Source of the DNA: Salinimicrobium profundisediminis | GTDB taxonomy: Bacteria > Bacteroidota > Bacteroidia > Flavobacteriales > Flavobacteriaceae | Length of the DNA stretch: 64,000 bases | Assembly: GCF_026241755.1 (NCBI RefSeq) | Contig: NZ_JAPJDA010000020.1 | Span: 1-64,000, forward strand | Direction: 5' to 3' | Part shown: positions 1 to 56,528 of the stretch, piece by piece | How positions within the stretch are numbered: the first letter of the stretch is position 1 | How the letters are laid out: each line of letters opens with the position of its first letter | The notes under the pieces: generated by a model | What the model was told of the DNA's origin: nothing | What the model saw: the letters and a program-made list of their open reading frames with translations, nothing else | The model's database searches: none | Position numbers and translations under genes: made by a program

Positions 1-1559
1 CCGTTTTCAGTAGCATTTTCAGAAACTTCATTTCCGGAATTAAGTCCGGTAATCAAAAAATCAGCTCCAAGGTCGGGAAGTGTGACCTTCATCTCCCATT
101 CCGCATGATTTATAACTGCCAGGGTTTTGTCCAGGCTGTTATTTCCGAAGGGATTTTTAACCACAATAGCATCGGGCATTAGCTCAAGCCTCCACACGCC
201 TTTTTCGAGCTTATCAAGAAAATAAGCTCCTTTGCCCTCATATTTTACTACAGGAGAACTTCCAACTCCTGCTATTTGCTTCAGTTTTTTGAGATTTTTC
301 GGCTGACTTTCGGTGGTATTGGTATAAATAAATTTTTCATCAGAATTCATTTCAGCAAGATCCTTTTCATAGCTAATCCTGAAATTTCCGAAGTTAAGAT
401 TAGCAGGATATTTGCCCAGATCTTCATTCATTGGCAACTCATGAAAAATCTCACCGCTAATCATCAACGCCAGGGCTTTTGAAGGTGTGTAAGCGAGGTT
501 CATGTAATGCGTGTCGTATTCGGTGTTATAGGGCGCCATGAAGGTGGGATCGTAAGCGAAATGAGTGCCAATCTGTATGCCGGCCTGCCTGATGCTACGT
601 GCCATAGCCGAATACATATAAGATTTCATCACATCGGCCGCATCAAACTCATAGACCAGTTTTGCCAGTCCGTGTTCCTCCCAAACCTCATCAAACGGAA
701 TCTCATAATTATTCACGTTGGGCAGGAGATTGCCCTCCAGTTCTTTTCCAAAGCCTAAACCGGTGGGATACCACTGGAAAGTCCCGCCGTCTATCCCGGC
801 TTTTGCGTAAGTTTCGGCCAACTGGATGCTATGGGTCACGTTATAGAAAATAGGCTTTTTTGTGCCGGTAGATTTCATGGAGGCGATCATCCTTTCAATA
901 AATTCCTGCACTTTCTCCGGACTCTCCCGGTGGTGCGGCTCATTACTGACTTCAAAAGCAATCACATTGGGCTCGTCTTTATAAGCAATATCCGTGTAAG
1001 GGTTCACGTGCTCAAGGAACTGGGCCAGGTAATTCTCCTGGGCTTTAATGGCATCGGGATGAGTGAGGCTGCCCTCTTTTCCGTATTTATGAGAAAAACC
1101 GGGAGTTTCTGTATCAGGTTCCGGCCAGCCACCGCCCCAATAGGCAATGGGCGTGAGTACGAAATTGATTCGGCGTTGCTTAAGTTCGTTTATAAGGAAA
1201 TCAAAATGGTCAAGATGCTCGTTTTTGAGAAGATTTCCCTCTACATCACTTATTTCGGTGTCCCAGATGTGAATACGGTACAGGTCAAAACCCAATCTGG
1301 AAAAATGGTAAACATCATTTTGCATCTCCTTTTTAAGATCCACTCCCATCTTCTTACCAGACCGAAAAGCATGGGCAAAAGGCACAGAATAATTCACCCC
1401 AAAACCTTTCACCTCCTCTTTATTATGCCCCCAGCGCATCACGCCGCTATCATCTACAAAAACATCTGCTTTTTTGCCATTTTTGACAGCCTGCGCCACA
1501 ACCGGATTCGCAACTGCGATACTCAGGGCCAGGAAAATTTTAAATCTAAAATTCTTCAT
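1..1559 (-). CDS. Secreted clan GH-A glycoside hydrolase (GH5-like), 3' end outside window
   Basis: The minus frame stays open from an ATG at 1559 to the window edge, giving 519 codons without a stop. Residues 1-23 form a signal peptide ending VVAQ, so export is expected. A TIM-barrel hydrolase follows. VSNEPHH carries the likely acid/base Glu207 after an Asn, and LVYEFDAAD carries the likely nucleophile Glu304; this pair is typical of retaining clan GH-A enzymes such as GH5. Beyond about residue 400 the protein looks like a beta-sandwich domain. Its start overlaps the end of the GH2-like remnant by 14 bases, and it is last in the run behind the DeoR-type regulator. Substrate cannot be read from sequence; the neighbouring amino-sugar genes suggest a glycan backbone hydrolase. 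Clan confidence is high, family number moderate. Confidence 0.8.
   Translation of the reverse strand, partial: MKNFRFKIFLALSIAVANPVVAQAVKNGKKADVFVDDSGVMRWGHNKEEVKGFGVNYSVPFAHAFRSGKKMGVDLKKEMQNDVYHFSRLGFDLYRIHIWDTEISDVEGNLLKNEHLDHFDFLINELKQRRINFVLTPIAYWGGGWPEPDTETPGFSHKYGKEGSLTHPDAIKAQENYLAQFLEHVNPYTDIAYKDEPNVIAFEVSNEPHHRESPEKVQEFIERMIASMKSTGTKKPIFYNVTHSIQLAETYAKAGIDGGTFQWYPTGLGFGKELEGNLLPNVNNYEIPFDEVWEEHGLAKLVYEFDAADVMKSYMYSAMARSIRQAGIQIGTHFAYDPTFMAPYNTEYDTHYMNLAYTPSKALALMISGEIFHELPMNEDLGKYPANLNFGNFRISYEKDLAEMNSDEKFIYTNTTESQPKNLKKLKQIAGVGSSPVVKYEGKGAYFLDKLEKGVWRLELMPDAIVVKNPFGNNSLDKTLAVINHAEWEMKVTLPDLGADFLITGLNSGNEVSENATEN
1475..1486 (+). repeat. 12-mer word TGCCATTTTTGA, copy 1
   Basis: Exact copy of the word found seven times in this window. 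It lies inside the GH5-like gene on the strand opposite its coding strand. Confidence 0.6.
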
Positions 1560-2091
1560 GATTGTTTATTTCAAAATGCTTGAAGTGGCCAGAAGTTGTA
1601 AAATTGTTGCTGTGTAATAACCTGGTGAAAATTCCAGCTTTGACATAAACGGAATCTTCATCAATAATTTTGTTGTTTTCTGCGGAAGTTAGCTCATAGG
1701 CTACCGGCAAAGGACTATTGTTTACCAATTTCCTTTTTTCATGTAAAAGTTTGGAAGATATGGAAACTACACCTGAAGTTTTTGGGGCGATATCTTTTGC
1801 TGAAACACCTGCTGAAAATGCCATTTTTGACACCTCTGCCAAAGTTAGAGTCAGCCGGGCCGCAACTTTTTTTGCACCAATCAACTCAAAGGCTTTCAAT
1901 TTCCTCTGAAACAATTCAGTAATAAAAAAAGCACCAAATGGATGGTACATTTCATTTGAAAATGAAGGGGTTTCCGGTTTCTTTTTCTCTACCCGATTTG
2001 CTGTAAGATAAAAGGGCACTTCTTTAGTATTGCTGTAGAAGGTAATATCTATAGTAAAATTGGGCTGCCAGTAATTGGCCAAATAAAACAT
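1546..2091 (-). pseudogene. Remnant of a GH2-type beta-galactosidase/mannosidase C-terminus
   Basis: This 181-residue frame has no signal peptide and no catalytic domain. Its order of motifs resembles the C-terminal immunoglobulin-like domains of large GH2 enzymes: a VxVYSN-like segment (ITFYSNTKEV), a KKKPET turn, a K-L-K-A strand followed by GAKKVA, then a second domain ending in AGIFTRLLHSNN, which resembles the usual GIATVxIxS strand. Many consensus positions are lost, and only 51 bases separate its start from the repressor gene, so the front of the parent gene is missing. I read it as a decayed fragment that may still be translated. It could instead be an unrecognised small protein. The assignment rests on remembered family patterns and not on an alignment. 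Confidence 0.45.
1819..1830 (+). repeat. 12-mer word TGCCATTTTTGA, copy 2
   Basis: Exact copy inside the GH2-like remnant. It is extended at the left to AAAATGCCATTTTTGA (from 1815), the same 16 bases as at 6505 and 34731. Confidence 0.6.
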
Positions 2092-2142
2092 TACGACTTG
2101 TTAGGCTCCTGTAAAAATAAGAAAATTAAAGCGCCCTAGGGT

Positions 2143-2904
2143 TTACTGCGCCTTAATTACTTCAATATTTTTCTTTTTTAAGGCTTCCTCCATTTCGGGT
2201 TCAATCCCTGCATCGGTCACTATTTTATCTATTTTATCGAAGCCACAAATAAATGCAAGTCCAGATTTTTTAAACTTAGAAGAATCGGCCACTACAATCA
2301 CTTCTTCGGCCACCTCAATCATGATTTGGTTGAGATAGGCTTCCTCCATATAATGTGTGTAAATTCCTGAATTTTCCTTTATGCCATCTACTCCAAGAAA
2401 GAGTTTATTACAATATAACTGCCTGAAGTTTCGCTCGGCCATGGGCCCCACTAAAGACATGCTGAATTCTTTTAAATAGCCGCCAGGCATAAAGACCTCC
2501 AGATTCTTGTATTGGGATAAATTATTTACAATGTCAAGGGCATTGCTAATTACAGTGAGGTTCTTAAAATCTTTCAGGTTTGTTGACAATTCGAAAGTTG
2601 TAGTTCCCGAATCTAAAATTATACTCTCGTCTTCATTGATGAGACTCACTGCTTTTTTCCCGATAAGACGTTTGTAATCGAGGTTTATTTTTTTCTTTTC
2701 CGAAACATTTAAAGCAATATTATTTGCTTTAAAAGCACCGCCATGAGCTCTTATTAAGAGTTTATTTTTTTCTAGCTTATCAAGATCATTGCGAATAGTA
2801 ACTTCACTCACGTTGAGCAACTGACTTAATTCGGTAACATTCACCTGGCCTGCATCATCTAGCTTTTCTAAAATAAGAGATCTGCGATACGCTGTTTTAT
2901 TCAT
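2143..2904 (-). CDS. DeoR/AgaR-family transcriptional repressor
   Basis: A 253-residue DeoR-family regulator. Residues 1-55 are the N-terminal helix-turn-helix with the family signature VTIRNDLDKLE followed by LIRAHGGA. The rest is the DeoRC sugar-phosphate sensor, with the phosphate-binding turn DSGTTTFEL and the strand KLFLGVDGI. The frame extends to a TTG at 2946, but the ATG at 2904 (MNKTAYRR) fits the family start. Relatives bind a phosphorylated intermediate of the pathway they control. Here the gene follows the agaS-kinase-aldolase run, separated by about 175 bases that contain a strong palindrome, and a CTTTCG box lies upstream of its own ATG. It probably represses itself, the catabolic run and susCD. 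Confidence 0.9.
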   Translation of the reverse strand: MNKTAYRRSLILEKLDDAGQVNVTELSQLLNVSEVTIRNDLDKLEKNKLLIRAHGGAFKANNIALNVSEKKKINLDYKRLIGKKAVSLINEDESIILDSGTTTFELSTNLKDFKNLTVISNALDIVNNLSQYKNLEVFMPGGYLKEFSMSLVGPMAERNFRQLYCNKLFLGVDGIKENSGIYTHYMEEAYLNQIMIEVAEEVIVVADSSKFKKSGLAFICGFDKIDKIVTDAGIEPEMEEALKKKNIEVIKAQ

Positions 2905-2930
2905 AACTTTTACGATTGATTCTTTAAGAA

Positions 2931-2936
2931 CGAAAG
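2931..2936 (-). promoter_or_regulatory. CTTTCG box upstream of the DeoR-type gene
   Basis: Read on the minus strand the sequence is CCTTTCGTTCTTAAAG, about 30 bases before the ATG at 2904. CTTTCGTTT-like repeats are the core of the E. coli AgaR operator as I remember it. This is a candidate autoregulatory half-site. Confidence 0.35.
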
Positions 2937-3001
2937 GATTTTGCAAAAATAATAAATTCCTACACTAATTTTAAGTTTCGGTAATTTACTGTCAATCTAG
3001 T

Positions 3002-3033
3002 AAATAAAGTTCTTCTTTCGAACAACTTTATTT
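3002..3033. promoter_or_regulatory. Palindrome with 14-base arms containing CTTTCG, candidate operator
   Basis: AAATAAAGTTCTTC (3002-3015) and GAACAACTTTATTT (3020-3033) pair at 13 of 14 positions around the loop TTTC. The centre contains CTTTCG (3015-3020), the word also present at 2931 and 8343. It sits between the amidohydrolase stop and the repressor gene. It lacks a proper T-run on the minus strand, so an operator is likelier than a terminator, although a weak terminator is not excluded. Confidence 0.45.
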
Positions 3034-3079
3034 AAATTTTGCTGATTTTTTTTAAAAGATAAAATTAATCCTCTCTTTC

Positions 3080-4072
3080 TTATGTAAGAAAACCGTAAGT
3101 TTTGATGGCATTATCACGAAAAATCTTTTCCAGAACTTCAGGTGGTAACGCAAGACCTTTAAAACTTCCGTCGAATTCGGGCGCAGTGAGCTCTTTAGAA
3201 GTGGCAAAAAAGTCCCAGTGGGCCTGCCACAATCCTTCAAACCTATTTTTAACTTCTTCATCAGTCATAGAACCATCTTCAATAACATCTGTACCATATA
3301 TTATCCGGTCCTGATATTTGATGAAAAATTCTCTCACTTTTTCATGATCTTCCATAGCCTGTAATTGTACATGACAAATACGTTCGGCTAAATCGGTCTT
3401 AGAATTAGGGAATTTTTCAAGCCTTTTGGCAACTTCGTCAAGGCTATATTCCATGCTAAAAAGGTGTAATCCCACATATTTTAAATCGGGGTGCTTGATC
3501 AACACATTATCCCTTGCCTGCATTTGTGCCTGATAGGAAGGATAGTCGGGATTCTTAAACATATGATATTCGGGATGACCGGCAAAATAATCGCGGTCAC
3601 TGTTAACCGTCATTTCTTCTAAGGGCAACCAGCAATTACGGGGTTCTCCCTGATGCCCAATAAGCAAAATGTCATTTTTAGCAAGATATTCGTAAATGGG
3701 ATCAAATCTTTTATCATCAACCATAACAAATTTCCCATCCTTATCTTTCACCGACTTATCCATCCCGATGTTCTTCCAAATTTTCACACCTGCAGCACCA
3801 TTAGCCAAACCAATCTTTATTTGCTGCATGGCATGAGGCAACCAGTCTTCAGTATTCCAGAATTTTGTATCAAAACTTGTGATGAATTTTATTCCCTGCG
3901 GATATTCTTTTTGAAGATCGTGAATAACTGCCTCCTGCTCCTCTATACTTTCAAAAAACGGAATATCAGTATTAATAGATAAGAACCTTGCATTCCATTT
4001 TTTTGCTGTATCGAGCTTAGCAGTAGAACGTGTATTTAAATGAACATGAGCATCTATAAAATTGTCTAACAT
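3080..4072 (-). CDS. Metal-dependent amidohydrolase (Amidohydro_2 type)
   Basis: A 330-residue cytoplasmic TIM-barrel hydrolase. The metal-binding pattern of the amidohydrolase superfamily is visible: His9 and His11 (DAHVH), a GVKIWK strand with Lys97/Lys100, His140 (LIGHQGEP), His203 (GLHLF) and Asp262 (YGTDV). It resembles Amidohydro_2 proteins more than NagA/AgaA deacetylases. It follows the aldolase by about 100 bases in the amino-sugar run and is the last gene before the regulator. Family members hydrolyse lactones, amides or carboxylates, so the substrate is not predictable. Because no NagA/AgaA-type deacetylase lies in the window, one possibility is that it removes an acyl group from a sugar intermediate; this is inference only. 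Confidence 0.8.
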   Translation of the reverse strand: MLDNFIDAHVHLNTRSTAKLDTAKKWNARFLSINTDIPFFESIEEQEAVIHDLQKEYPQGIKFITSFDTKFWNTEDWLPHAMQQIKIGLANGAAGVKIWKNIGMDKSVKDKDGKFVMVDDKRFDPIYEYLAKNDILLIGHQGEPRNCWLPLEEMTVNSDRDYFAGHPEYHMFKNPDYPSYQAQMQARDNVLIKHPDLKYVGLHLFSMEYSLDEVAKRLEKFPNSKTDLAERICHVQLQAMEDHEKVREFFIKYQDRIIYGTDVIEDGSMTDEEVKNRFEGLWQAHWDFFATSKELTAPEFDGSFKGLALPPEVLEKIFRDNAIKTYGFLT

Positions 4073-4176
4073 AATGATATTTTTTACTGATCACTTAAGG
4101 ATTCTCTTCACGTTAAGCCATCGGTTAATTCAGGTTTTGATTTTGACACATCTTTTCTTATCTTCTGAAGTAGGGC

Positions 4177-4998: not shown

Positions 4999-5000
4999 AC

Positions 5001-5945
5001 TTAAAGTTCTTTATTCTCGATTTGTTGTTTTTTTAATGCTATTTCTGAAGCGGTAGTAAATGCCGTGGTACCTCCTGCACAGGTTGTATTTAAAGACCCC
5101 ATAAGGTTGCCATTTTTTAAACAGGCTTTCCAGGAAGAGCCTTTGAGATATTCATGAATGAACCCGGCATTGAAAGAATCACCTGCACCTATGGCGTCTT
5201 TAAAATACCGATTGATAAAGGGAGGTTCAATTATTCGCTCGTTTCCAGAGATCAAAAGTGATCCTTCAGTCCCCATTTTAATAGCTACAGTATTTACTTC
5301 AGGTTTTAAGGCTAAAATTGCCTCCTCCAGGTTGTCTTTTTTGGTAAGATTGAGCAATTCAGACTGGTTTGGAAAAAAGATATCTACATAGGGCAGGACT
5401 TTTTTATAGTCAAAATCCCATTTATCTTCGGGGTCTACCTGCAAGTCAAGAGATGTAGTAAGCCCGGCGGCTTTAGCTTTTTTGAAAATTTCTAAAATAT
5501 CTGGTTTAATACCTTTCTGAAGGTAAAAATTGGAAAGGTGAAAGTGATCGAATTCATCTAATGCCCCCCACGGAATGTCACTAATTGTAAAATCTTCCAT
5601 CGCCCCACAATAAGTTACATTTGCCCTGTCCTGGTCGTAGTTCATAACTATGGTAATTCCGGTTTTGTGGGTATCAGATTTCCTAATATAGCCGGTATCT
5701 ACATTCTTCTTCTGAAGTTCAGTAAGCACAAATTCTCCAAACCTGTCTGCTCCAATTTTTCCGCAGAAAGAAGTGAGAGTCCCCATAGTTGCCACATTGG
5801 AAGCCATTATAGCTGAAGAACTACCAAGTGTAAAATCCATTTCTTCAGCAACAATTTCATCGCCTATTTTGGGAAATCCGTTGATGTTGTTTAAGATCAA
5901 ATCAATATTCAACTCCCCTACCACCAATAATTTTTTACGCCTCAT
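5001..5945 (-). CDS. PfkB-family (ribokinase-like) carbohydrate kinase
   Basis: A 314-residue PfkB kinase. The N-terminal sugar-binding signature is a variant, LGSSSAIMASNVATMG (residues 40-55), where most relatives have GGxxxN. The C-terminal signature DAIGAGDSFNAGF (250-262) supplies the anion hole and catalytic base Asp256. The FFPNQSE segment near 190 is the usual nucleotide-domain strand. It overlaps the next kinase gene by 11 bases and sits 2 bases ahead of the aldolase. Two PfkB-fold kinases in one operon suggest successive phosphorylations. Bacteroidota lack sugar PTS uptake, so this one may phosphorylate the free amino sugar while the LacC-like enzyme acts on tagatose-6-phosphate. 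Substrate is inferred. Confidence 0.85.
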   Translation of the reverse strand: MRRKKLLVVGELNIDLILNNINGFPKIGDEIVAEEMDFTLGSSSAIMASNVATMGTLTSFCGKIGADRFGEFVLTELQKKNVDTGYIRKSDTHKTGITIVMNYDQDRANVTYCGAMEDFTISDIPWGALDEFDHFHLSNFYLQKGIKPDILEIFKKAKAAGLTTSLDLQVDPEDKWDFDYKKVLPYVDIFFPNQSELLNLTKKDNLEEAILALKPEVNTVAIKMGTEGSLLISGNERIIEPPFINRYFKDAIGAGDSFNAGFIHEYLKGSSWKACLKNGNLMGSLNTTCAGGTTAFTTASEIALKKQQIENKEL

Positions 5946-6861
5946 GTATTATTTCCTTTATATCAACTCTTTGCAAAAGACTTTTTACATCATTTATTCT
6001 TAACTGGCCCAGGTCTTCAAAAAGGCAATTTGCAGCGCCACATGCTACTCCATATGCAGCTGTTTCTTCGATACTTAAATTCCTGGAAATGACATGTGCC
6101 AGTCCGGCTGTAAGACAATCGCCACTGCCTACCGTGCTTACCACTTTGTCTATTTTTACATTTGCCGATAGAACCCTGTTTTGATATGCAAGCACCAGCC
6201 CGTCTTTTCCCCTGGTTAAAGCCACCATCTCTACCTTACCACTCAGAAATTTCATTACATCTTGGATATCCTCACTCCCGCATAAATTTTTGGCTTCCTC
6301 CTGGTTTAAATGAAGCCCAAAAAACCCTTTTTTAAGTGCCTCCTTCAGTTGAATCCCAGTACAATCAAGTATCACGGGAACATTTTGTTTATTTGCTGCT
6401 TCAATAAGCTGCGCATAAGCATCTACGGGGGCATTTTCAGGCCAGGAACCCGCCATGCAAATTATCCTGGTATTACCAATTGCATCCTGGAAAAACTCTT
6501 TAAAAAAATGCCATTTTTGAGAGGTGAATTCAGGTCCAGGTTCAAGCAGTTCAGAATTATTTATCTCACTTTTACCCGACCGAAACGTGTAACACTTTCT
6601 ATTGTTACCTTCCAGCTCAATGCCTAAAGCAGCTACATTCTTCTGCGCACATTGGTCTTTAATCCAATTACCTGCACCTCCTGCCCATGCACCTATTAGG
6701 CTTGATGTATTACCTAACTCGGCAAGGGCAAGGGCCACGTGCACTCCCTTGCCTCCCGGAAATTCCTCCACCCGCTCTATGCGATTTACCCCACCTGCTT
6801 TAAAGGTGTCGATCCATGCATAAGTGTCTACAGAAGGATTTGGACAAACACTTAAGATCAT
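5935..6861 (-). CDS. 1-phosphofructokinase/tagatose-6-phosphate kinase family protein (LacC-like)
   Basis: A 308-residue kinase of the FruK/LacC/PfkB branch. It starts with the typical MILSVCPNPSVDTYAWID, and PGGKGVHVALALAELG (35-50) forms the sugar site. VGSGDCLTAGL near residue 245 carries catalytic Asp248. In this branch the enzyme phosphorylates a ketose phosphate to the 1,6-bisphosphate. Its ATG overlaps the stop of the agaS-like gene by 4 bases (6858-6861) and its end overlaps the next kinase gene, which implies translational coupling. The neighbouring isomerase and aldolase make tagatose-6-phosphate to tagatose-1,6-bisphosphate the most economical reaction. Fructose-1-phosphate kinase activity cannot be excluded from sequence. 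Confidence 0.85.
   Translation of the reverse strand: MILSVCPNPSVDTYAWIDTFKAGGVNRIERVEEFPGGKGVHVALALAELGNTSSLIGAWAGGAGNWIKDQCAQKNVAALGIELEGNNRKCYTFRSGKSEINNSELLEPGPEFTSQKWHFFKEFFQDAIGNTRIICMAGSWPENAPVDAYAQLIEAANKQNVPVILDCTGIQLKEALKKGFFGLHLNQEEAKNLCGSEDIQDVMKFLSGKVEMVALTRGKDGLVLAYQNRVLSANVKIDKVVSTVGSGDCLTAGLAHVISRNLSIEETAAYGVACGAANCLFEDLGQLRINDVKSLLQRVDIKEIIHEA
6509..6520 (+). repeat. 12-mer word TGCCATTTTTGA, copy 3
   Basis: Exact copy inside the LacC-like kinase gene, on the strand opposite its coding strand. It is part of the 16-base form AAAATGCCATTTTTGA (6505-6520). Confidence 0.6.
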
Positions 6862-15003: not shown

Positions 15004-16119
15004 ATGAATATCCTTCATTTATCGGCAGTAAGAAATTGGGGCGGCGGTGAAAAACATATTGAAAACTTGTCCCTGGAGATGTCTGAACACCATCCGGAAG
15101 TATCCAATATTATACTGTGCAGAAAAGGAAGCCTTTTTGAGCAAAGCCTTAAAAATCTAGAATTAAGGCATTATACTGCTCCCGTTTTTACGAGTTTCGA
15201 CTTCAGGTATGTCAAAAAAATCATTCAGGTCTCAAAAAGGGAAAAAATTGACCTCATCCATATTCATGATCCCAATGCACTATCACTGGCCGTATTAGCC
15301 GATCATTTTTTTGACCTGCCTCCCTTTATTTTCAGTAAAAAGACCAGTTTCCCCATCAGGGCACGCCGCCAAACCCTTTTTAAATACAATTACCCCAAGA
15401 TTAAACGCATTTTATGTGTTTCAGAAGAAACAAAACGCGTGAGCTTGGAGACTCTGAGTGATCCTGACAGGTTTGAAGTAATTTATCACGGCACAAGCCT
15501 GAAAAATAAAGATCAAAAATGCCCTTTTTGGATAGGTAGCGAATATAAGCTTCCGGAGCATTCAAAAATTATTGGCAACATTGGGAATCATATTGATGCA
15601 AAGAACCTTGAGTCTTTTGTTCGCACCGCAGATTTTCTCGTAAACAAGAAGAACCTGAAGGACCTCTACTTTTTTCAGGTGGGTAACTTCAGCGAGCTAA
15701 CCCCTGCTCTAAAAGACCTTGTGCAGGAATGCAATCTCGATAACCATCTGTTTTTTTCAGGTTATATTCCGAATGCTTCAGCTTTTATACCACAGTTTGA
15801 CATGCTGCTCCACACTTCCAAAAGTGAGGGCATCCCCCAGGTGATCTACGAATCTTTTTATTACAAAGTTCCTGTAGTAAGCACCAATGTAGGCGGAATC
15901 CCCGAAGTTATTGAAGATAAAATCAACGGCCTATTGAGCGATCCTTATGACTTTAAAGGGCTGGGCGAAAACCTGCTGTTTTTACTTGAAAATCCGCAGG
16001 TAATCCCGAACTTTGCAAAAATATCCAGGAACAAACTATTTGAATCCTTCACCAGTCAGATTATGGCCGGGAAGACCCTGGAAGCATATAAAAACGCACT
16101 AAATGGGAGATTACACTGA
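15004..16119 (+). CDS. GT4-family glycosyltransferase
   Basis: A 371-residue GT-B fold glycosyltransferase. MNILHLSAVRNWGGGEKHI at the start is the usual N-terminal strand and glycine turn of GT4 enzymes. The C-terminal donor site shows SEGIPQVIYESF with the EX7E Glu pair, followed by VVSTNVGGIPEVI. The frame extends upstream to a TTG at 14941, but the ATG at 15004 fits the family start, as the 21 extra residues are not family-like. Such enzymes transfer a nucleotide-activated sugar to lipid or polysaccharide acceptors on the cytoplasmic side of the membrane. The divergent KdkA-like neighbour suggests LPS core or surface glycan assembly. Its last 17 bases overlap the Sua5 gene. Confidence 0.88.
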   Translation: MNILHLSAVRNWGGGEKHIENLSLEMSEHHPEVSNIILCRKGSLFEQSLKNLELRHYTAPVFTSFDFRYVKKIIQVSKREKIDLIHIHDPNALSLAVLADHFFDLPPFIFSKKTSFPIRARRQTLFKYNYPKIKRILCVSEETKRVSLETLSDPDRFEVIYHGTSLKNKDQKCPFWIGSEYKLPEHSKIIGNIGNHIDAKNLESFVRTADFLVNKKNLKDLYFFQVGNFSELTPALKDLVQECNLDNHLFFSGYIPNASAFIPQFDMLLHTSKSEGIPQVIYESFYYKVPVVSTNVGGIPEVIEDKINGLLSDPYDFKGLGENLLFLLENPQVIPNFAKISRNKLFESFTSQIMAGKTLEAYKNALNGRLH

Positions 16120-21370: not shown

Positions 21371-21413
21371 AAAAAGAGGTCTCCAAAATGTCATTTTTGA
21401 GACCTCTTTTTTT
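21371..21413. terminator. Bidirectional terminator, word-containing loop
   Basis: AAAAAGAGGTCTC pairs with GAGACCTCTTTTT. The inner part, CCAAAATGTCATTTTTGA, is a near copy of the inverted 12-mer word (TGTCATTTTTGA at 21389-21400). It separates two convergent genes. Confidence 0.85.
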
Positions 21414-26515: not shown

Positions 26516-27727
26516 GTGTACAAGCTTCTAATTTCGGGGATTTTCCTGATGCTATTCTGTGGAAAAATAACAGCCCAGGTAGGGATCAATACATATGAGC
26601 CAAAAGCTCAGCTCGACATCTACACCGAAAATCCGAATTCCCCCGAACCTACCGACGGTATTCTTATCCCACGCATCTCAAATTTCCCTGCGACCAATCC
26701 CACCGCCGAGCAGCACGGGATGCTCGTATTTCTCAGCTCTCAAAAAGGGCAATTTTCACCCGGATTTTACTGGTGGGATTCGGTTAGCGGTAACTGGCAG
26801 GGCGTGGGTGGCAAGGCTACTTCCGACTTTTATAAAACAGGAACCACCTCCCCCTCAACCAGCCCCGATGATGCTGTATTTAGGAAAGGAAACGTAAGTA
26901 TTGGCGGGTCTTCTACTAATGTAAAATTAAAGGTAATGATAGACAATGCTGAAGATCACAACATTCGCACTCCGCTGGAAGTAGAAAATACCAGCGCTAC
27001 CACAAAGAACGTGACTTATGGCATTTTAAGCAGTAACAACACAGCCACCCAGGATAAGAAATATGGGATAAAAAACTCGGTTAGTGGCGCCGGAATTGGA
27101 ATTCACTACGGAATATTTAACGAGGTGAACCAAAACACCAATGAAGAGATCTACGGAATCTACAATGATGTAGGGAAGACTTTTGGATCTACCAAAAACC
27201 ACTACGGGATCTACAATGAAATTGGCACCGAACAGGGCAACGGCTTTGTCTACGGCATTTACAGCACCGCTTTTGGCAATGACCCAAAAAAGGTATTTGC
27301 AGGCTACTTTGCCGGAAGAGTAGGCATAGGAACTACAGGAAATGATTACGTATTACCCGATACCCGCGGACTGGCAGACCAGGTGCTTATGACAGATGCT
27401 AACGGACTGGTGACATGGAAGTATCCGAATTCAGGGATCTACTCTTCTACAGCCACCAGCACCGGCGCTTTCCAAATTACGCCCGAAACTTATAGTTTGC
27501 GTATTAACAATCAGGTGAGCAGCATTGTCATACCCGATGCCGCCACCAATAAAGGCCGGCTCATTTACCTGCTCAACTGGCCGGGAAATACTATTAAAAC
27601 CCTCGAATTTATTGGCAGTAACGACCTTTTTGACATTACTACAAACTCTACGGTCAATACGATTGCACCGGGACAGAAATACCTCATTCAAAGCGCCGGG
27701 AACCGATGGATTTTACTGGACAAGTAA
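26516..27727 (+). CDS. Secreted repeat protein, tail-fibre/adhesin-like
   Basis: A 403-residue protein starting with GTG and a signal peptide ending ITAQ (residue 21), then VGINTYEPKAQLDIY, a segment common at the start of flavobacterial surface proteins. The middle (about 170-260) has five spaced YGI(Y/F/K)(N/S) repeats, as in HYGIFNE, IYGIYND, HYGIYNE and VYGIYST, which suggests a beta-helical or trimeric fibre stem. It is followed by RVGIGTTGN and ADQVLMTDANGLVTWK, a phrase typical of long fibre proteins. The last 100 residues form a beta-sandwich-like cap. Function is unknown; adhesion or a surface coat is a guess. A terminator follows. Confidence 0.75.
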   Translation: MYKLLISGIFLMLFCGKITAQVGINTYEPKAQLDIYTENPNSPEPTDGILIPRISNFPATNPTAEQHGMLVFLSSQKGQFSPGFYWWDSVSGNWQGVGGKATSDFYKTGTTSPSTSPDDAVFRKGNVSIGGSSTNVKLKVMIDNAEDHNIRTPLEVENTSATTKNVTYGILSSNNTATQDKKYGIKNSVSGAGIGIHYGIFNEVNQNTNEEIYGIYNDVGKTFGSTKNHYGIYNEIGTEQGNGFVYGIYSTAFGNDPKKVFAGYFAGRVGIGTTGNDYVLPDTRGLADQVLMTDANGLVTWKYPNSGIYSSTATSTGAFQITPETYSLRINNQVSSIVIPDAATNKGRLIYLLNWPGNTIKTLEFIGSNDLFDITTNSTVNTIAPGQKYLIQSAGNRWILLDK

Positions 27728-34712: not shown

Positions 34713-34760
34713 CAAAAAAAAGGCTGCTCAAAAATGCCATTTTTGAGCAGCCTTTTTTTA
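34713..34760. terminator. Terminator built on the inverted 12-mer word
   Basis: A stem of about 22 pairs, GGCTGCTCAAAAATG with its complement plus A/T runs. The apex TCAAAAATGCCATTTTTGA is the 12-mer word (34735-34746) fused to its own inverse. It serves both convergent genes. Confidence 0.9.
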
Positions 34761-37160: not shown

Positions 37161-37847
37161 ATGAAGATAAAGATCCTGGGCACCCGCGGAAAAATAGAAC
37201 CCAAAGCTGAAGATCACGTTAATCACACCGGATTTTTAATAGATGATAAGATACTGATTGATGTAGGGGAAGAAAAATATATGGATAAACACCCAAAAGC
37301 TGTGGTCTTTACCCACTTTCATCCAGATCACGCTTTTTTTGTTCCGAATAAAGAAAAATTCATACCCAAAACTCCCCTTTTTGGGCCCGAAGCCCACGAC
37401 CTCATTCCGCAGCTCAAGGTGATTTCAGGAAAATTTGAAGTAGAAGGATATACCTTTACTCCTATTCCTGTTATTCATGCGCTCAGATTAAAATCCCTTG
37501 GCTATATCATCAAAAAAGCCGAAAAAAGGATCTTTATCACAGGAGATGTGGCATGGATAGAAAAAGCGAACCTTGCCGATTTACCGCCATTAGATCTCGT
37601 GATCACCGAAGCTACCTTTATAAAGAAAGGCGGACGAATTAACCGAAAGAAAGACAGGATCTTTGGCCACACCGGTGTTCCCAACCTCATTCGCCTCTTA
37701 TCTCCGCTCACCAAAAAAATTGTCTTTTGTCACTATGGCGAGTGGTTCTTTGAAGACACTCCGCATAACAGCAAACAAAAGATCAAAGCACTTGAAAAAG
37801 AAATCCCGCTGGTACCGGCACACGACGGAATGGAGATGGAGGTTTAA
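37161..37847 (+). CDS. Metallo-beta-lactamase-fold hydrolase
   Basis: A 228-residue MBL-fold protein. The metal motif is FTHFHPDHAFF with His52, His54, Asp56 and His57. Further ligands fit IPVIHALR (His near 110), ITGDVAW (Asp near 127) and FCHYGEW (His near 194). The layout resembles the short RNase Z/phosphodiesterase-like branch, but no exosite is seen and the substrate is unknown. It begins 8 bases after the erythromycin-esterase-like gene. Its last 4 bases overlap the end of the convergent DUF72 gene. Confidence 0.85.
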   Translation: MKIKILGTRGKIEPKAEDHVNHTGFLIDDKILIDVGEEKYMDKHPKAVVFTHFHPDHAFFVPNKEKFIPKTPLFGPEAHDLIPQLKVISGKFEVEGYTFTPIPVIHALRLKSLGYIIKKAEKRIFITGDVAWIEKANLADLPPLDLVITEATFIKKGGRINRKKDRIFGHTGVPNLIRLLSPLTKKIVFCHYGEWFFEDTPHNSKQKIKALEKEIPLVPAHDGMEMEV

Positions 37848-38569
37848 TTAGTATGCCCAAAAAGCTCTTTTAGCTGCTGTGCATTTTTGGGGGCGTGAGC
37901 ATGTATGTCATTATTGAAATAAATATAGATTTCCTTGAGCCCACTATCCATGATCTTTTTATGCCATTCCTTTAATTCATCTTTAGAATAAAGGTAATCA
38001 TACCAGTCTTTACCTGTGCCGTGAAACCGGAGGTAGCCTGTTTTGCCGGTAGTAATTAATTCTTCAGGAAATTCGGGACTTGAAATTGAGCTGAAGATGA
38101 TGTTGTGCTCCTTCAGGATATCAAATACTCCTTCATCATACCATGAATCATGACGAAATTCAAGCACATTTTTTAATGTTGGATCAAGCGTTTTACAAAA
38201 CTCCCTGAGCTTCTCATCATTCCGGTGCAGGTTTGGCGGCAACTGCCATAAAATGCAGCCAAGGTTCTGCTTTAAAAGCCTTGCAAGACTTTCAAAATCC
38301 TTCACGCTTTGAGTAACATCCTTTAGCTTTTTGCGGTGGGTGATGTACCGGTGCCCTTTTAAAGTAAACTGGAAATTCTTCCCTACAGTCGCTTTCCATG
38401 TATGCAATCCTTTTTCCCGTGGAAACCTGTAAAATGTATTGTTGATCTCTACGGTGTCAAAAATGGCAGAATAATGCTCCAGCCACTTGCGCTGCGCCAT
38501 TTTTTGCGGGTAAAAAGCTCCCCGCCAGTCTTTATAATTATATCCCGAACAACCTATATGCACCTTCAT
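37844..38569 (-). CDS. DUF72 domain protein
   Basis: A 241-residue TIM-barrel protein of the DUF72 (YecE) family. VHIGCSGYNYKDWRGAFYP at the start is the family hallmark, followed by FDTVEINNTFYRFP and a RFHGTGKDWYDYLYS segment with INNDIH near the end. Catalytic role is not established. Its start overlaps the end of the Fpg/Nei gene by 4 bases, so the two are co-translated; a link to DNA repair is suggested only by this. It carries the only minus-strand copy of the 12-mer word (38457-38468). Confidence 0.88.
   Translation of the reverse strand: MKVHIGCSGYNYKDWRGAFYPQKMAQRKWLEHYSAIFDTVEINNTFYRFPREKGLHTWKATVGKNFQFTLKGHRYITHRKKLKDVTQSVKDFESLARLLKQNLGCILWQLPPNLHRNDEKLREFCKTLDPTLKNVLEFRHDSWYDEGVFDILKEHNIIFSSISSPEFPEELITTGKTGYLRFHGTGKDWYDYLYSKDELKEWHKKIMDSGLKEIYIYFNNDIHAHAPKNAQQLKELFGHTN
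38457..38468 (-). repeat. 12-mer word TGCCATTTTTGA, copy on minus strand
   Basis: The plus strand reads TCAAAAATGGCA. It lies inside the DUF72 gene in the sense orientation. Confidence 0.6.
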
Positions 38570-41849: not shown

Positions 41850-41861
41850 TGCCATTTTTGA
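41850..41861 (+). repeat. 12-mer word TGCCATTTTTGA, intergenic copy
   Basis: Exact copy 13 bases before the DUF3820 ATG. CCTCAATTTTGCC precedes it, so the inverse half is only partly kept. Confidence 0.6.
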
Positions 41862-42202: not shown

Positions 42203-43882
<1,680 letters not shown>

Positions 43883-49388: not shown

Positions 49389-49409
49389 CTTCGAAAAAGA
49401 ACTTTTTAA

Positions 49410-49433
49410 CCCTGTCGTGGCTTCACGACAGGG
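49410..49433. other. Strong hairpin between mnmA and the next gene
   Basis: CCCTGTCGTG and CACGACAGGG are perfect 10-base arms around GCTT. There is no T-run on either strand after it. It ends 16 bases before the ATG at 49450 and could affect translation or stabilise the mRNA 3' end of mnmA. Confidence 0.55.
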
Positions 49434-49449
49434 ACTATACCCGCCAATT

Positions 49450-50394
49450 ATGACCAACAACAGGATCACCCAACTCTTTGACATAAAATATCCCATAATA
49501 CAGGCCGGAATGATTTGGGCCAGCGGATGGAAACTTGCCAGCGCCGTGAGCAATGAAGGAGGACTGGGAATTATTGGTGCAGGCTCTATGTATCCTGAAG
49601 TTCTTAGGGAGCACATCCAAAAATGTCAAAAAGCGACCTCCTTTCCTTTTGCCGTTAATATTCCCATGCTCTACCCCAACCTGGAAAAGATCATGGAGAT
49701 CATCATAGAAGAAGGAGTGAAAATCGTCTTTACCTCTGCCGGAAACCCGAAGACCTGGACGCCCTATTTACAGGAAAAAGGAATCAAAGTGGTTCATGTG
49801 GTGAGCAGTGTAAAATTTGCCCTTAAAGCTGAAGCCGCCGGTGTAGATGCAGTGGTAGCTGAAGGTTTTGAAGCCGGAGGCCACAATGGCAGGGATGAGA
49901 CCACAACTTTTACCCTAATTCCCATGGTTAGGGAACAAATCAAAATTCCGCTTATAGCTGCAGGAGGTATTGCCACCGGCCGCGGAATGCTGGCTGCGAT
50001 CGTTCTGGGAGCCGATGCCGTGCAGGTGGGCAGCAGGTTTGTTGCCTGCAATGAAGCTTCCTCTCATCCAAACTTCAAGGAAATGGTGGTACAGGCCAAA
50101 GAAGGCGACACAGTGCTTACTCTCAAAGAACTCGCCCCTGTAAGGCTATTGAAAAACCGCTTTTTTGAGCAGGTAACCGAGCTGTATGCTACAAGCCCTA
50201 CAAAAGATCAACTCATTGAACTGCTGGGACGTGCAAGAGCCAAAAAAGGCATGTTTGAAGGAGATCTAGAGGAAGGAGAACTGGAAATAGGGCAGATTTC
50301 GGGATTGATTCACGACATCAAACCTGCAGCCGAAATTATTCAGGATATGCTCAAAGAATTTGAAGCAGCCAAAGCCGAAGTCGCCAGCTTTTAA
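49450..50394 (+). CDS. NAD(P)H-dependent flavin oxidoreductase, nitronate-monooxygenase-like
   Basis: A 314-residue FMN TIM-barrel protein. RITQLFDIKYPIIQAGM is the family start, and PLIAAGGIATGRGM with VQVGSRFVAC makes the FMN phosphate site; EGFEAGGHNG carries the His usually taken as catalytic. The same family holds nitronate monooxygenases and FabK-type enoyl-ACP reductases, so an alternative function is real. ATG 49450 is chosen over the upstream GTG (49417), which lies inside the hairpin. The convergent gene ends overlap by 4 bases at 50391-50394. Confidence 0.87.
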   Translation: MTNNRITQLFDIKYPIIQAGMIWASGWKLASAVSNEGGLGIIGAGSMYPEVLREHIQKCQKATSFPFAVNIPMLYPNLEKIMEIIIEEGVKIVFTSAGNPKTWTPYLQEKGIKVVHVVSSVKFALKAEAAGVDAVVAEGFEAGGHNGRDETTTFTLIPMVREQIKIPLIAAGGIATGRGMLAAIVLGADAVQVGSRFVACNEASSHPNFKEMVVQAKEGDTVLTLKELAPVRLLKNRFFEQVTELYATSPTKDQLIELLGRARAKKGMFEGDLEEGELEIGQISGLIHDIKPAAEIIQDMLKEFEAAKAEVASF

Positions 50395-50939: not shown

Positions 50940-51333
50940 AGTGAAAACTAATGTCCAGAACGATATCGGGATGCAGGCTGTACAGCACCGGACATGTCTT
51001 TGCTGCGCGCTCCAGGATCTTCCTGTTTTTCTCATCATAGGAAGCCGGAAAGCTAAGTTCAACTTTTATGCCTGAAATCCTTCTTGGATCTGCAGCCATA
51101 GTTTTTGTGATACCGGCAGTGGTCCCTTCCACATTAATACCCAGATCTCTGGCCTTAATACCAATAATGGTCATCATACAGCTTCCCAGGGCTGTGGCAA
51201 CCGTATCGGTGGGAGAAAAAGCCTCTCCCCTTCCCTCATTGTCTACAGGCGCATCTGTAATAAAGGTATTACTGCTTTGTAAATGTTCACACTGGGTTCT
51301 TAGATCGCCCAGATAAGTCACTTTTGAAGTCAT
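50917..51333 (-). CDS. OsmC/Ohr-family peroxiredoxin-like protein
   Basis: A 138-residue OsmC-like protein. Family elements are TDAPVDNEGRGEAFSPTDTVATALGSCMMTIIGIKARD with the first reactive Cys in ALGSC, and a second Cys in RAAKTCPVLYSL; such a pair reduces organic hydroperoxides through a disulfide. ATG 51333 touches the stop of the LysM gene by one base, so translation is coupled. The 3' end overlaps the DUF922 start by 23 bases. It is cytoplasmic although its neighbours are exported. Confidence 0.9.
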   Translation of the reverse strand: MTSKVTYLGDLRTQCEHLQSSNTFITDAPVDNEGRGEAFSPTDTVATALGSCMMTIIGIKARDLGINVEGTTAGITKTMAADPRRISGIKVELSFPASYDEKNRKILERAAKTCPVLYSLHPDIVLDISFHYENTISK

Positions 51334-53264: not shown

Positions 53265-53274
53265 AGATCATTGT

Positions 53275-54804
53275 TTATTCCCACTCAATAGTGGCAGGCG
53301 GTTTAGAACTTATGTCGTACACTACCCTATTAACGCCTTTAACTCTGTTAATTATTGTATTGGAAGTTTTTTGCAAAAAATCATACGGTAGATTCACCCA
53401 GTCGGCCGTCATCCCATCGGTAGATTCAACTGCACGCAGGGCAACTACTTTTTCATAGGTTCTTTCATCTCCCATTACACCTACCGAGTTCACTGGCAAA
53501 AGAATTGCTCCTGCCTGCCAAACCTTGTCATATAACTCCCATTCTTTTAATCCATTCACAAAAATGGCATCAACCTCCTGTAAAATACGAACTTTTTCGG
53601 GAGTGATGTCGCCAAGAATCCTAATCGCCAGTCCGGGCCCGGGAAAAGGATGTCTTCCCAATAGTTCCTTATCTATCTCCAGCTCTGCTCCTACTCTTCT
53701 CACCTCATCCTTGAACAACATTCTCAACGGCTCCACTACCTTAAGCTTCATATAAGCAGGTAAACCGCCCACATTGTGGTGAGACTTGATGGTCACCGAA
53801 GGCCCGTTCACCGAGACAGATTCAATAACATCGGGATAAATGGTTCCCTGTGCCAGGTACTTCACATCTTTTATGCAGTGAGCCTCATCGTCAAATACAT
53901 CAATAAAGGTCTTGCCTATCGCCTTCCGCTTCCCTTCAGGGTCTGAGATTCCTGCCAGAGCATCCAAAAAACGTGCCGAAGCATCAACCCCTTTTACGTT
54001 AAGGCCCATGTGCTTGTACTGGTCAAGCACGCTTTCAAATTCATTCTTTCTTAGCAGGCCGTTATTTACGAAGATGCAGTAAAGGTTCTTACCAATGGCT
54101 TTATGAAGAAGTACGGCGGCAACGGTAGAATCCACGCCTCCGCTTAACCCTAACACTACTTTATCATCGCCTATTTGTTTCTTAAGGTCGGCTACCGTCA
54201 TGTCTACAAAAGCTTCCGGAGTCCATTCCTGCTCAACTTTTGCAATGTTTACAAGGAAGTTTTCCAAAAGTTGTTTTCCATCTGTTGAGTGGTAAACTTC
54301 GGGGTGGAACTGGATGGCATAAGTATCTTCTCCGTCTATGCGGTAAGCGGCATTCAGTACATCTGGTGTACTTGCCAACCTCACCCCATTCTCGGGTAAT
54401 TCTTTAATAGTATCACTGTGGCTCATCCATACCTGTGAGTTTTCAGTAATATCGGCAAACAAGGCTTCATCATCTTTGATCACCGAAAGATTAGCGCGGC
54501 CGTATTCTCTTATTTCTGAAGCTTCTACCTTTCCGCCGTTAAAATGCGCGAGATATTGCGCTCCATAACAAACGGCCAGAACGGGAAGCTGCTTCCTAAT
54601 CTTCGAAAGATCGGGGTGTGGCGCATCTTCTGCTCTAACAGAAAAAGGACTTCCCGAAAGTATTACAGCTTTAAAACCGGAAAGATCAGTTGGAATTTTG
54701 TTGTAAGGGTGAATCTCGCAGTAAATATTGAGTTCTCGAACCCGGCGGGCAATCAATTGTGTGTATTGAGAGCCAAAATCTAAGATAAGGACGTTGTTGT
54801 GCAT
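53275..54804 (-). CDS. guaA: GMP synthase (glutamine-hydrolysing)
   Basis: A 509-residue GMP synthase that aminates XMP. The glutaminase domain begins [22 protein letters not shown] and has the nucleophile in [13 protein letters not shown] and the His/Glu of the triad in QFHPEVYHS. The ATP-pyrophosphatase domain starts with [15 protein letters not shown] near residue 220. The C-terminal dimerisation domain ends KPPATIEWE, the invariant tail. The ATG at 54804 is preferred to the TTG at 54810. It heads a run of guaA-LysM-OsmC-DUF922 with gaps of 10 bases or overlaps, an odd functional mix. Confidence 0.97.
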
Positions 54805-54891
54805 GCGCAAAAATAGGAATTTGAGGTAAAATTAACCCCTGTGCCGACTTATTTTATATCTTTAAACTTAAAATCGTTCAGTTTACCCCCT

Positions 54892-55617
54892 ATGAAATAC
54901 ATTGCTCCCATCTTCGTATCGGTCGCCATAGTACTGGCCGCCTACATTGCCGGTAATTTTTATCTCAAAAGAGCCACTCCCCCCGGAGTCATTGCAGTAA
55001 CGGGATCGGGAAGTGAAGATTTCACTTCAGACCTTATTGTGTGGGAAGGGACGTTTTCTCAAACCAGCATGGAGCTACAGGCTGCTTTTGAAAGACTCAA
55101 TGCAGACAAAGAAACCGTAAGACAATACCTCATTTCAAAAGGTATAGACGAAAAGAATATCGTCTTCAATTCGGTAAAGACTACCGAACTTAGAGAGGCA
55201 CAATACCAGAATGGCAATTATGTAGGAGAAATCTTTAAGGGCTACCAACTCCAGCAAACCGTAAAAATTGAGTCTACAGATGTGCCTATGGTCGAAAAAG
55301 TATCACGGGAGATCACCGAACTTCTCCAAAAAGGGGTGCAGTTCAATTCTACTCCTCCCCGCTACTACTACACAAAATTAAGTGACCTCAAGATCCAGAT
55401 GATCTCGGCCGCCACAGAAGATGCTCGTATAAGGGCCGAAAAAATTGCCCAAAACAGCGGTAGCGAACTGGGATCTTTACGCAGTGCCGATCTTGGCGTT
55501 TTCCAGATCATTGGCCAGAACAGTGGCGAAAGCTTCACCTGGGGCGGCGCCTACAACACTGCCGATAAGAAGAAAACAGCCTCGGTGACCATGAGGCTGG
55601 AGTTTGAAATAGACTAA
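54892..55617 (+). CDS. SIMPL domain protein
   Basis: A 241-residue membrane-anchored periplasmic protein. The ATG at 54892 gives a tidy N-terminal helix (IAPIFVSVAIVLAAYIAG); the frame extends to a GTG at 54841 without family character. Residues 40-240 match the SIMPL/DUF541 fold (GVIAVTGSGSEDFTSDLIVWEGTF, then KNIVFNSVKTTE and AATEDARIRAEKIAQNSGSELGSL). SIMPL proteins include the periplasmic BP26 and are linked to stress, but function is unproven. It is divergent from guaA, with its own leader of about 90 bases. Confidence 0.82.
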   Translation: MKYIAPIFVSVAIVLAAYIAGNFYLKRATPPGVIAVTGSGSEDFTSDLIVWEGTFSQTSMELQAAFERLNADKETVRQYLISKGIDEKNIVFNSVKTTELREAQYQNGNYVGEIFKGYQLQQTVKIESTDVPMVEKVSREITELLQKGVQFNSTPPRYYYTKLSDLKIQMISAATEDARIRAEKIAQNSGSELGSLRSADLGVFQIIGQNSGESFTWGGAYNTADKKKTASVTMRLEFEID

Positions 55618-55640
55618 GAAAATATCATCTTTAACTGGTA

Positions 55641-55679
55641 AAAATACCTTCTGAAAATGTCATTTTTGGAAGGTATTTT
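55641..55679 (+). terminator. Terminator of SIMPL gene containing a variant of the 12-mer word
   Basis: AAAATACCTTCTGAAAATG pairs with CATTTTTGGAAGGTATTTT at 17 of 19 positions. The apex GAAAATGTCATTTTTGG is close to the inverted word seen at 21389 and 34735. Confidence 0.85.
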
Positions 55680-55783
55680 TGTTTAATCTTCAGCTCTTTT
55701 CTGAAAGTTTTATGCTGAAGGATTTACCTTTCCAGAAATTCTAAATTTTTCCCAAACTGACTAATTTCCTCTCATCCTTTCGA

Positions 55784-55791
55784 TATTTTTG
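55784..55791 (+). promoter_or_regulatory. -7 box of the DUF2071 gene
   Basis: TATTTTTG matches TAnnTTTG, 23 bases before the ATG at 55815. The -33 element is not exact. Confidence 0.45.
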
Positions 55792-55814
55792 GGTAAAACC
55801 CATTAGTACAAACC

Positions 55815-56528
55815 ATGAAACTGCATATTTCTTCTGAATTTGGGAAGGTTGCCCTTATAAAATACGCTATTCCTGCTGAAGTAGTGGAGAAATACCTGCC
55901 AAAGCACACAAAACCCGACCTCTACAACGGATTATGCATGATAAGCCTTGTGGGTTTCCAGGTAAAAAAGCTAAAAGTAGCCGACGTGAAATTGCCATTT
56001 TTGAAGGATTTTGAAGAGATTGATCTTCAGATCTACGTCAGGCGTTTTGATGGTGCAAAATGGCAAAAAGGAGTGGTGGTTATACACCGGATCTTAGAGC
56101 AACCGGGCTCTGCCATATTGGCAAATACCATATTTAAAACCAACTATATAGCCCTTCCCACAAGTAGTGCTGTAGAGGAAACACAGGACGATATCAAAGC
56201 GAATTATTCCTGGCAATACAAAGGTATACAGCAAAATTTTGGGGTAAAAAGTAACCGCCTCGCTGCACCATATGATAAGGACAGCAAAGTGGCATTTTTT
56301 CTAGATCGCTCTTTTGGATACATCAAAGCCCGGGAAAAGACCTACGAATATGGGCTCAATCACGTGGACTGGCATCTTTACAGTGTAGAAGAATATTCCG
56401 TTGACGTCGATTTCTCCCGGCAGTTCGATCCTGCGTTTAATATTCTCAATTCCCAAACCCCGCATTCGGTGATCTTTACAGAAGGCTCAACAGTTGAGAT
56501 TGGGGAGAATGTGGAGGTTACTTCTTGA
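55815..56528 (+). CDS. DUF2071 (YqjF-type) family protein
   Basis: A 237-residue cytoplasmic protein of the DUF2071 family (acetoacetate-decarboxylase-like fold). Features are YAIPAEVVEKYLPKH near the start, a LVGFQVKKLKVADVKLPF strand, VYVRRF-like IYVRRFDGAKWQKGVVVIHRI, and GFSY-like SFGYIKAREKTYEYGLNHVDWHLY near residue 165. Function is unknown. It contains one copy of the 12-mer word (55993-56004). It is followed by the degenerate-repeat gap, where no further gene is seen for about 630 bases. Confidence 0.83.
   Translation: MKLHISSEFGKVALIKYAIPAEVVEKYLPKHTKPDLYNGLCMISLVGFQVKKLKVADVKLPFLKDFEEIDLQIYVRRFDGAKWQKGVVVIHRILEQPGSAILANTIFKTNYIALPTSSAVEETQDDIKANYSWQYKGIQQNFGVKSNRLAAPYDKDSKVAFFLDRSFGYIKAREKTYEYGLNHVDWHLYSVEEYSVDVDFSRQFDPAFNILNSQTPHSVIFTEGSTVEIGENVEVTS
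55993..56004 (+). repeat. 12-mer word TGCCATTTTTGA, copy in DUF2071 gene
   Basis: Exact copy on the coding strand; it encodes part of KLPFLK, so the codon choice at this point may be bent by the word. Confidence 0.55.

Follow-up and report, generated by a model that had tools for sequence, protein, structure and literature searches.

A genus-restricted, over-represented DNA word in Salinimicrobium as a candidate uptake sequence

Introduction

Does a short DNA word that recurs in genes and gaps alike mark the DNA of a bacterium for uptake, or does it guide proteins acting on the chromosome? The question is raised by a stretch of 64,000 nucleotides from Salinimicrobium profundisediminis (Flavobacteriaceae; assembly GCF_026241755.1, contig NZ_JAPJDA010000020.1, positions 1 to 64,000; hereafter the window), in which the 12-base word TGCCATTTTTGA occurs seven times. 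An earlier note on this DNA had considered both an uptake word and a guide word for FtsK or RecBCD. As judged from the sequence, the word is probably the core of a DNA uptake sequence (DUS) that would let naturally competent Salinimicrobium prefer DNA of their own kind. Most features of an uptake tag that can be tested in sequence fit: over-representation, copies in both gene orientations and a high density in gaps, re-use in terminators, turnover by point mutation, no replication-strand bias, and the presence of genes for ComEC, a TonB-receptor-like barrel and a DUF5689 protein in all nine enriched genomes. From the motif, its abundance, distribution, turnover and conservation, and its co-occurrence with these genes, we infer that the species are competent, that their uptake is biased and which protein reads the tag.

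A requirement for uptake words has been called unique to Neisseria and Pasteurellaceae (PMC3630211). Riemerella columbina is reported to prefer its own DNA, with no word established for it (PMC7965970). A search of the literature on uptake sequences in Flavobacteriaceae, Bacteroidetes or Bacteroidota, outside which most subscription papers and preprints lay, returned only Riemerella as relevant; an uptake sequence is apparently new for Bacteroidota, as far as the authors are aware. Uptake in both Neisseria and Pasteurellaceae is pilus-based.

Over-representation of the word

All seven exact copies listed in the earlier note are present, where 0.03 are expected, and none of 100 dinucleotide shuffles of the window reached seven; with up to one mismatch, 16 copies are found against 1.16 expected. 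Three of them carry the longer AAAATGCCATTTTTGA (at 1815, 6505 and 34731), as also noted. The genome that holds the window (G000; 4,036,307 bases in 101 contigs) contains 254 exact copies, 126 on the forward and 128 on the reverse strand, while the reversed word, which together with the reversed core served as composition control for genome counts, occurs twice, once per strand. The core TGNCHTTTTTGR has 1172 matches in this genome, about 290 per megabase (Mb), compared with 50 for the reversed core. Measured against a fourth-order Markov background, the number is nowhere near expectation: 145 exact copies versus 1.9 in 1.65 Mb sampled from G000 and from a closed relative (G009, also used to compare replication halves).

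Recent local duplication, which the earlier note had named as a possible explanation, does not account for the copies, the flanks of which share the motif only, save for a few in internal gene repeats. In these apparent repeats the word has been multiplied locally, for example as TGACATTTTTGA every 273 bases (G000:C5:11434-13027; L024 1342-2613; L148 10321 and 10612). An Rfam search of the window gave nothing at gathering scores, the window holds no tRNA, viral contigs held no exact match to a 22-base form of the motif, and in the accessible literature the literal word had no related occurrence, only one in an unrelated plant context.

Anatomy of the motif

The word is embedded in a longer pattern. 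The 42 exact copies in 446 kb of G000 have a common consensus, in which an A-tract at -18 to -14 is followed by tC and then A/T at -7 to -1, by the word, and by c-A-c/g-c-T. Many copies approach the palindrome TCAAAAATGNCATTTTTGA. At least 14 of 18 positions agree with it at 147 places, where two third-order Markov simulations gave 12 and 21, and at 16 places in the 446 kb the 19-bp near-palindrome is matched at 18 of 18 positions. Among single changes in the 1.65 Mb of both genomes, any base is readily accepted at the third position, C or T at the fifth and G at the last. A at the first base (21 versus 1.5 expected) and T at the fourth (11 versus 0.8) are tolerated less, and the other positions allow little change. 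GNC and TTTTTG of the word are nearly strict, and the core is therefore close to TGNCHTTTTTGR. Species dialects with another centre base are not claimed, as the counts of TGWCATTTTTGA show a relaxed centre.

The same flanks are seen at the 340 genic and 222 gap sites among 562 sampled core sites, and A/T tracts with centres about 10 and 12-13 bp from each other, or about a helical turn, are present at the genic sites as well. There the share of A in the A-tract is highest at -15 (72%), the tract from -4 to -1 is A/T-rich, and the left half is no strict mirror of the right. It is thus mainly the gap copies that are palindromic, and what genic and gap copies have in common is an asymmetric core with A/T tracts. 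The full tag would probably span about 30 bp, with the word at its core.

Placement, strand and hairpins

Genes were called with a simple codon-score caller rather than taken from annotation. After two copies at sample edges were dropped, 143 of the 145 exact copies in the G000 and G009 samples could be classified: 81 are genic, 19 lie in convergent gaps, 8 in divergent gaps and 35 in co-directional gaps. Of all positions (G000 and G009, smaller samples), genes take up about 90% and 87% and convergent gaps about 1.8%, so that gaps are over-dense in the word. With 33 genic copies sense and 48 antisense, the observation of the earlier note that copies fall in genes and gaps regardless of gene direction holds. 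They are distributed over six strand and frame combinations in G000 and five in G009, with sense frame 0 nearly absent. Codon bias was rejected as a cause, given genic copies on both strands and in several frames, and low counts for both the reversed control and 393 other genomes of the family.

A strand bias does not survive beyond the window. Six of the seven copies there lie on one strand, a small sample in which chance produced the imbalance, since the whole genome is divided 126 to 128. Replication gives no orientation either: the 64 copies in 42 sampled stretches of G009 split 16/16 and 16/16 in the two halves, as set by the authors from GC skew, and palindrome-like sites occur in every sampled stretch, at 1 to 14 per 20 kb. 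The lack of strand or replication bias speaks against FtsK-orienting polar sequences (KOPS), Chi, and marks of ori or ter domains. Between the two functions that had been proposed for the word, uptake is the better supported, though not proven, and guidance of FtsK or RecBCD is unsupported.

Some copies fold. A stem of at least 11 pairs around the centre, with two mismatches allowed, is formed by 19 of 62 gap copies and by 6 of 81 genic copies. In the window, the copies at 21389, 34728-34746 and 55658 top strong hairpins (z-scores of -7.1, -7.4 and -6.6), while the genic copy at 1819 and the copy at 41850, in a divergent gap, fold no more stably than shuffles. Near copies in terminators had been reported at 21389, which is correct, and at 55659, which is one base off; both fold as long hairpins. 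The inverted copies described in terminators are real as hairpins in all three cases, but the top of the stem is one near-palindrome of the TCAAAAATGNCATTTTTGA type rather than two inverted words. Hairpin and gene-end position together predict that some gap copies form terminator stems. The genic copies that form no hairpin indicate that the word acts on DNA and that some terminators re-use it.

Turnover and conservation

Alignment of G000 with G009 (264 kb at 85.8% identity) contains 27 word places, of which 16 are shared, 5 are found only in G000 and 6 only in G009. Every one of the 11 differing places is a substitution at the word, with no insertion. Identity reaches 97% at word positions, compared with 79-90% in the flanks, and 16 of 21 G000 copies (16 of 22 from the G009 side) are exactly kept. 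As controls, the kept share is 25% for all 12-mers that equal the word in having eight A/T, and 32% for A5/T5 12-mers with nine A/T; a binomial test that used 27%, the value for nine A/T, gave 3e-6. Copies come and go through point mutation, and they are better conserved than their flanks.

Distribution across genomes

Twelve Salinimicrobium genomes were compared (G000 to G011; G001 and G008 are 74% and 75% complete). Among named genomes, ComEC gave 10 matching loci, and the nearest six were all from Salinimicrobium. ComEC is identical to that of S. sediminis in G006, S. xinjiangense in G010, S. nanhaiense in G011, S. sediminilitoris in G007, Salinimicrobium sp. TH3 in G005 and the metagenome-assembled genome LH_M86 in G008. 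The exact word is enriched in nine: besides G000 with 254 copies, these are G009 (213), G004 (88), G008 (85), G007 (80), G005 (75), G010 (60), G011 (52) and G006 (48), with 13 copies in G003, 7 in G002 and 1 in G001. Counts of the core and reversed core are 1172/50 in G000, 1107/51 in G009, 617/30 in G008, 590/41 in G007, 559/48 in G005, 527/47 in G004, 496/38 in G010, 401/37 in G011, 389/45 in G006, 172/43 in G002, 117/73 in G003 and 24/23 in G001. With rounded genome sizes, G008, G000 and G009 have core densities of 280-315 per Mb, six genomes have 111-164, and G002 has about 52. G002 is weakly enriched (core 172 versus 43, palindrome-like sites 25 versus 3, exact word at background with 7) and G003 barely. 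The comparison with related Flavobacteriaceae that the earlier note had proposed sets these nine genomes apart: the largest exact count among 393 genomes of other genera, evenly drawn from a larger group, is 14, which is background.

In a tree of ComEC, the first split is that of G002 (support of 81/77 for the rest; its branch is long and its position uncertain), followed by that of G008 (100/100 for the others). In a tree of a different gene, G003 and G001 fall outside eight others, among which G002 is not resolved; both trees are midpoint-rooted. A single gain following the split of G002, one that may have begun before it, explains the word best.

Another word of this kind was not found in 200 kb each of G002 and G003, save for TTCCGAAGAA/TTCTTCGGAA. 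This second over-represented word, with the loose centre TTCCGNAGAA, occurs on both strands and also in gaps (samples such as L009-L028, L094-L113 and L030-L039), has little extended flank and keeps no fixed spacing to the first. Its density per Mb is 154 in G000, 148 in G009, 175 in G002, 100 in G004 and G011, 25-40 in G003, G006, G007 and G010, and 20 in G031, a genome of another genus. The G009 sample L094-L113 also holds a repeat with 12-mers occurring 40-45 times, which may be an array of clustered regularly interspaced short palindromic repeats (CRISPR).

Uptake genes in the genus

R. anatipestifer is reported to transform without a detectable pilus homologue, and a transposon screen in this species yielded ComEC, DprA, ComF and RecA as well as four proteins that do not resemble known uptake machinery (PMC8459023). 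Among these four, a predicted operon encodes an outer-membrane protein with a CarboxypepD_reg domain and a DUF5689/DUF5017 protein, both needed for transformation (PMC8459023). Genes for a barrel and a DUF5689 protein adjoin in G009 (L107 1800-4598 and 4599-5990), and the start of the DUF5689 protein, read by eye, is a lipoprotein-like signal. Beside the pair lies an Exo_endo_phos_3 nuclease-like gene (L107 645-1706, minus strand).

DUF5689, the barrel (at least 62% identity) and a full ComEC domain are found together in 10 of the 12 genomes, namely the nine enriched ones and G002. ComEC of G003 is a remnant with four stops (L223, G003:C11:33164-33400), so that one lineage of the genus seems to have lost the DNA channel, and that of G001 is a fragment in an incomplete (74%) genome. 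DUF5689 and a barrel orthologue were not found in either, only a barrel paralogue of about 28%. DUF5689 of the enriched genomes showed no extra length or insertions relative to G002, and sequence comparison found no solved structure related to either outer-membrane protein at E up to 1. One exact copy of the word lies within the ComEC gene itself (G000:C4:53220-53231, minus strand), which may be chance.

The type II/IV secretion ATPase PF00437, the only pilus family searched genus-wide, is above cut-off in one of the 12 genomes, G000; G009 carries the word about as densely without that ATPase. A cluster in G000 (L153 6237-12415, G000:C21) encodes a T2SSE ATPase, a secretin and a pilin-like protein that weakly matches ComP_DUS (E 5e-5, below cut-off).

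Comparison with known systems

The uptake signal sequence (USS) of Haemophilus influenzae consists of a core with AT-tracts, is present in many copies and evolves by point mutation (PMC7811141), and both USS and DUS often serve as terminators too (PMC12616744). The Salinimicrobium motif resembles it in each of these respects. It differs in its unrelated sequence, in being often near-palindromic, in belonging to another phylum and in that its role in uptake is a predicted one; its density is lower than that of the USS. Unlike in Pasteurellaceae, a secretion ATPase of the pilus kind passes the cut-off in only one of 12 genomes.

The DUS of Neisseriaceae is likewise a short core found genome-wide, within genes and in terminators, with one reading frame limited by a stop codon, and is confined to its clade (PMC3630211). 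All of this applies to the Salinimicrobium word, except that DUS terminators pair two words while here one palindrome makes the stem. The DUS receptor is ComP, a minor pilin (PMC3868556), whereas the Salinimicrobium reader is a proposed one. Closest in gene content is the Riemerella pair RA0C_RS04915/RS04920, which also consists of an adjacent CarboxypepD_reg outer-membrane protein and a DUF5689 and DUF5017 protein, with ComEC present (PMC8459023). The Riemerella system additionally has DprA, ComF, HhH and DUF1343 proteins, the Salinimicrobium comparison being limited to ComEC, barrel and DUF5689. For Riemerella the k-mers listed are A/T-rich and no uptake word is established (PMC7965970), in contrast to Salinimicrobium, which has a candidate word.

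A model of uptake and its rivals

In the proposed mechanism, double-stranded DNA would be bound at the tag by a complex in the outer membrane, most likely that of the DUF5689 lipoprotein and the CarboxypepD_reg barrel or a partner of it, and the phased A/T tracts would ease bending or opening of the site for DNA entry. The DNA would then be pulled in, passed through ComEC and recombined. Tagged DNA would enter more often, so that tags would spread by biased transformation and by point mutation where coding allows, and some gap tags would be re-used as terminator stems.

Several observations weigh against an uptake tag. No literature linking Salinimicrobium with natural transformation was found in a search that left most subscription papers and preprints outside. 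The barrel frame of G004 has one in-frame TAG (L202, G004:C3:43688-46486) though the genome is word-rich, and G002, with all three uptake genes, is only weakly enriched. Of 25 genomes sampled from other genera of the family, 24 have DUF5689, which makes this machine part older than the word, yet 100 kb of G031, the one sampled for words, held none of this kind. With G001, G003 and probably G002 outside the enriched clade, the link between genes and word amounts to one event, not twelve. Eleven of the 12 genomes lack the pilus ATPase, unlike the two known uptake-word families, and the secretin and ATPase cluster of G000 may belong to another uptake machine. Depletion of the word from unshared DNA, which an uptake tag should show, was not clear, at 63 versus 38 per Mb one way and 71 versus 99 the other; for the palindrome the values are 171 versus 133 and 200 versus 162 per Mb, and unaligned DNA may be merely unfetched in the partner. 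Many gap copies are nearly palindromic, which DUS and USS words are not known to be.

This last feature suits the strongest rival, in which the word is the binding site of a genus-specific chromosome-organising or global DNA-binding protein, a dimer reading the near-palindrome and phased A-tracts aiding bending. In its favour, the 19-bp near-palindrome is fully matched (18 of 18 positions) 16 times in 446 kb, sites occur in every stretch sampled from the closed chromosome, and conservation is strong. This reading is nevertheless unlikely, because the genic sites are asymmetric, with a fixed right half and a left half that is mainly A/T-rich, and because organising sites of the matS or Noc type are far sparser than the core, which has about 290 matches per Mb, 340 of 562 sampled ones being genic. 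Nor was an ori or ter domain pattern seen in the sampled stretches of G009, and a gain inside a clade with uptake genes would be a coincidence.

A hairpin element of terminators or mRNAs, whose stereotyped stem recurs at the ends of genes, would account for the three window copies in strong hairpins (z-scores of -6.6 to -7.4), for the 19 of 143 copies in convergent gaps that take up about 1.8% of positions, and for the stems of at least 11 pairs at 19 of 62 gap copies. It would leave aside the genic copies, of which only 6 of 81 have a stem and antisense ones are at least as common as sense, as well as the copies at 1819 and 41850, which lie outside terminators and fold no better than shuffles. 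The genic copies rule it out as the whole explanation, so that it explains a subset only and is quite improbable as an alternative. Scarcely plausible is a mobile repeat spread by transposition, similar to miniature inverted-repeat transposable elements (MITE) or repetitive extragenic palindromic (REP) elements: hundreds of similar, genus-restricted copies with an often palindromic core recall such repeats, but the 11 differing aligned places are substitutions without insertion, and no sequence is shared beyond the motif. A replication- or repair-polarity word (KOPS or Chi) can hardly be correct. It would be short and over-represented, as this word is, and six of seven window copies lie on one strand, but the strands are balanced genome-wide (126/128) and in each replication half of G009 (16/16 and 16/16), and KOPS and Chi are much shorter than this motif.

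Copies in the window

The exact copies at 1475..1486 (+), with the A-tract acaaaaac upstream, at 1819..1830 (+) and at 6509..6520 (+) are antisense in the called genes 3-1559(-), 1546-2091(-) and 5935-6861(-); the latter two are kept in G009, that at 1819 despite a different left flank and with no RNA hairpin. The copy at 38457..38468 (-) is sense in 37844-38500(-), as is that at 55993..56004 (+) in 55815-56528(+). At 41850..41861 (+) the word, with an A-tract upstream and no RNA hairpin, lies in a gap bounded by 41705(-) and by a called gene of weak score from 41874(+). The full palindrome TCAAAAATGCCATTTTTGA at 34728..34746 is read on both strands, as the exact word at 34735-34746 (+) and a near word at 34728-34739 (-), and tops a terminator-like hairpin (-27.7 kcal/mol, z -7.4) between convergent genes (34700 +, 34764 -).

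Two degenerate copies top terminator-like hairpins: TGTCATTTTTGA at 21389..21400 (+; z -7.1), between convergent genes (21340 +, 21447 -), and TGTCATTTTTGG at 55658..55669 (+; z -6.6), after a gene ending at 55617(+). Further degenerate copies within called genes on the minus strand are TGTCTTTTTTGG at 5333..5344 (+; gene 5001-5945) and TGCCTTTTTTGA at 58964..58975 (+; gene 58528-60147). Called genes on the plus strand contain TGCCCTTTTTGG at 15520..15531 (+; gene 15004-16119) and again at 43377..43388 (+; gene 42245-43882), TGCCCTTTTTGA at 26740..26751 (-; gene 26549-27727), TGACATTTTTGG at 49617..49628 (-) and TGCCTTTTTTGG at 50240..50251 (-), both in gene 49450-50394, and TGCCTTTTTTGG once more at 60581..60592 (-; gene 60265-62748).

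Implications

If the word is an uptake tag, it may represent a third independent origin of such tags, arisen once in Salinimicrobium, outside the Proteobacteria, and read by a pilus-free pair of DUF5689 lipoprotein and TonB-receptor-like barrel instead of by a pilin; this wider proposal is put forward tentatively. Self-tagging would then also evolve with a different machine, in a group that transforms without a recognisable pilus, and the word would provide a handle on the DNA receptor of Riemerella-type transformation. The graded enrichment within one genus would let the origin and spread of uptake words be followed.

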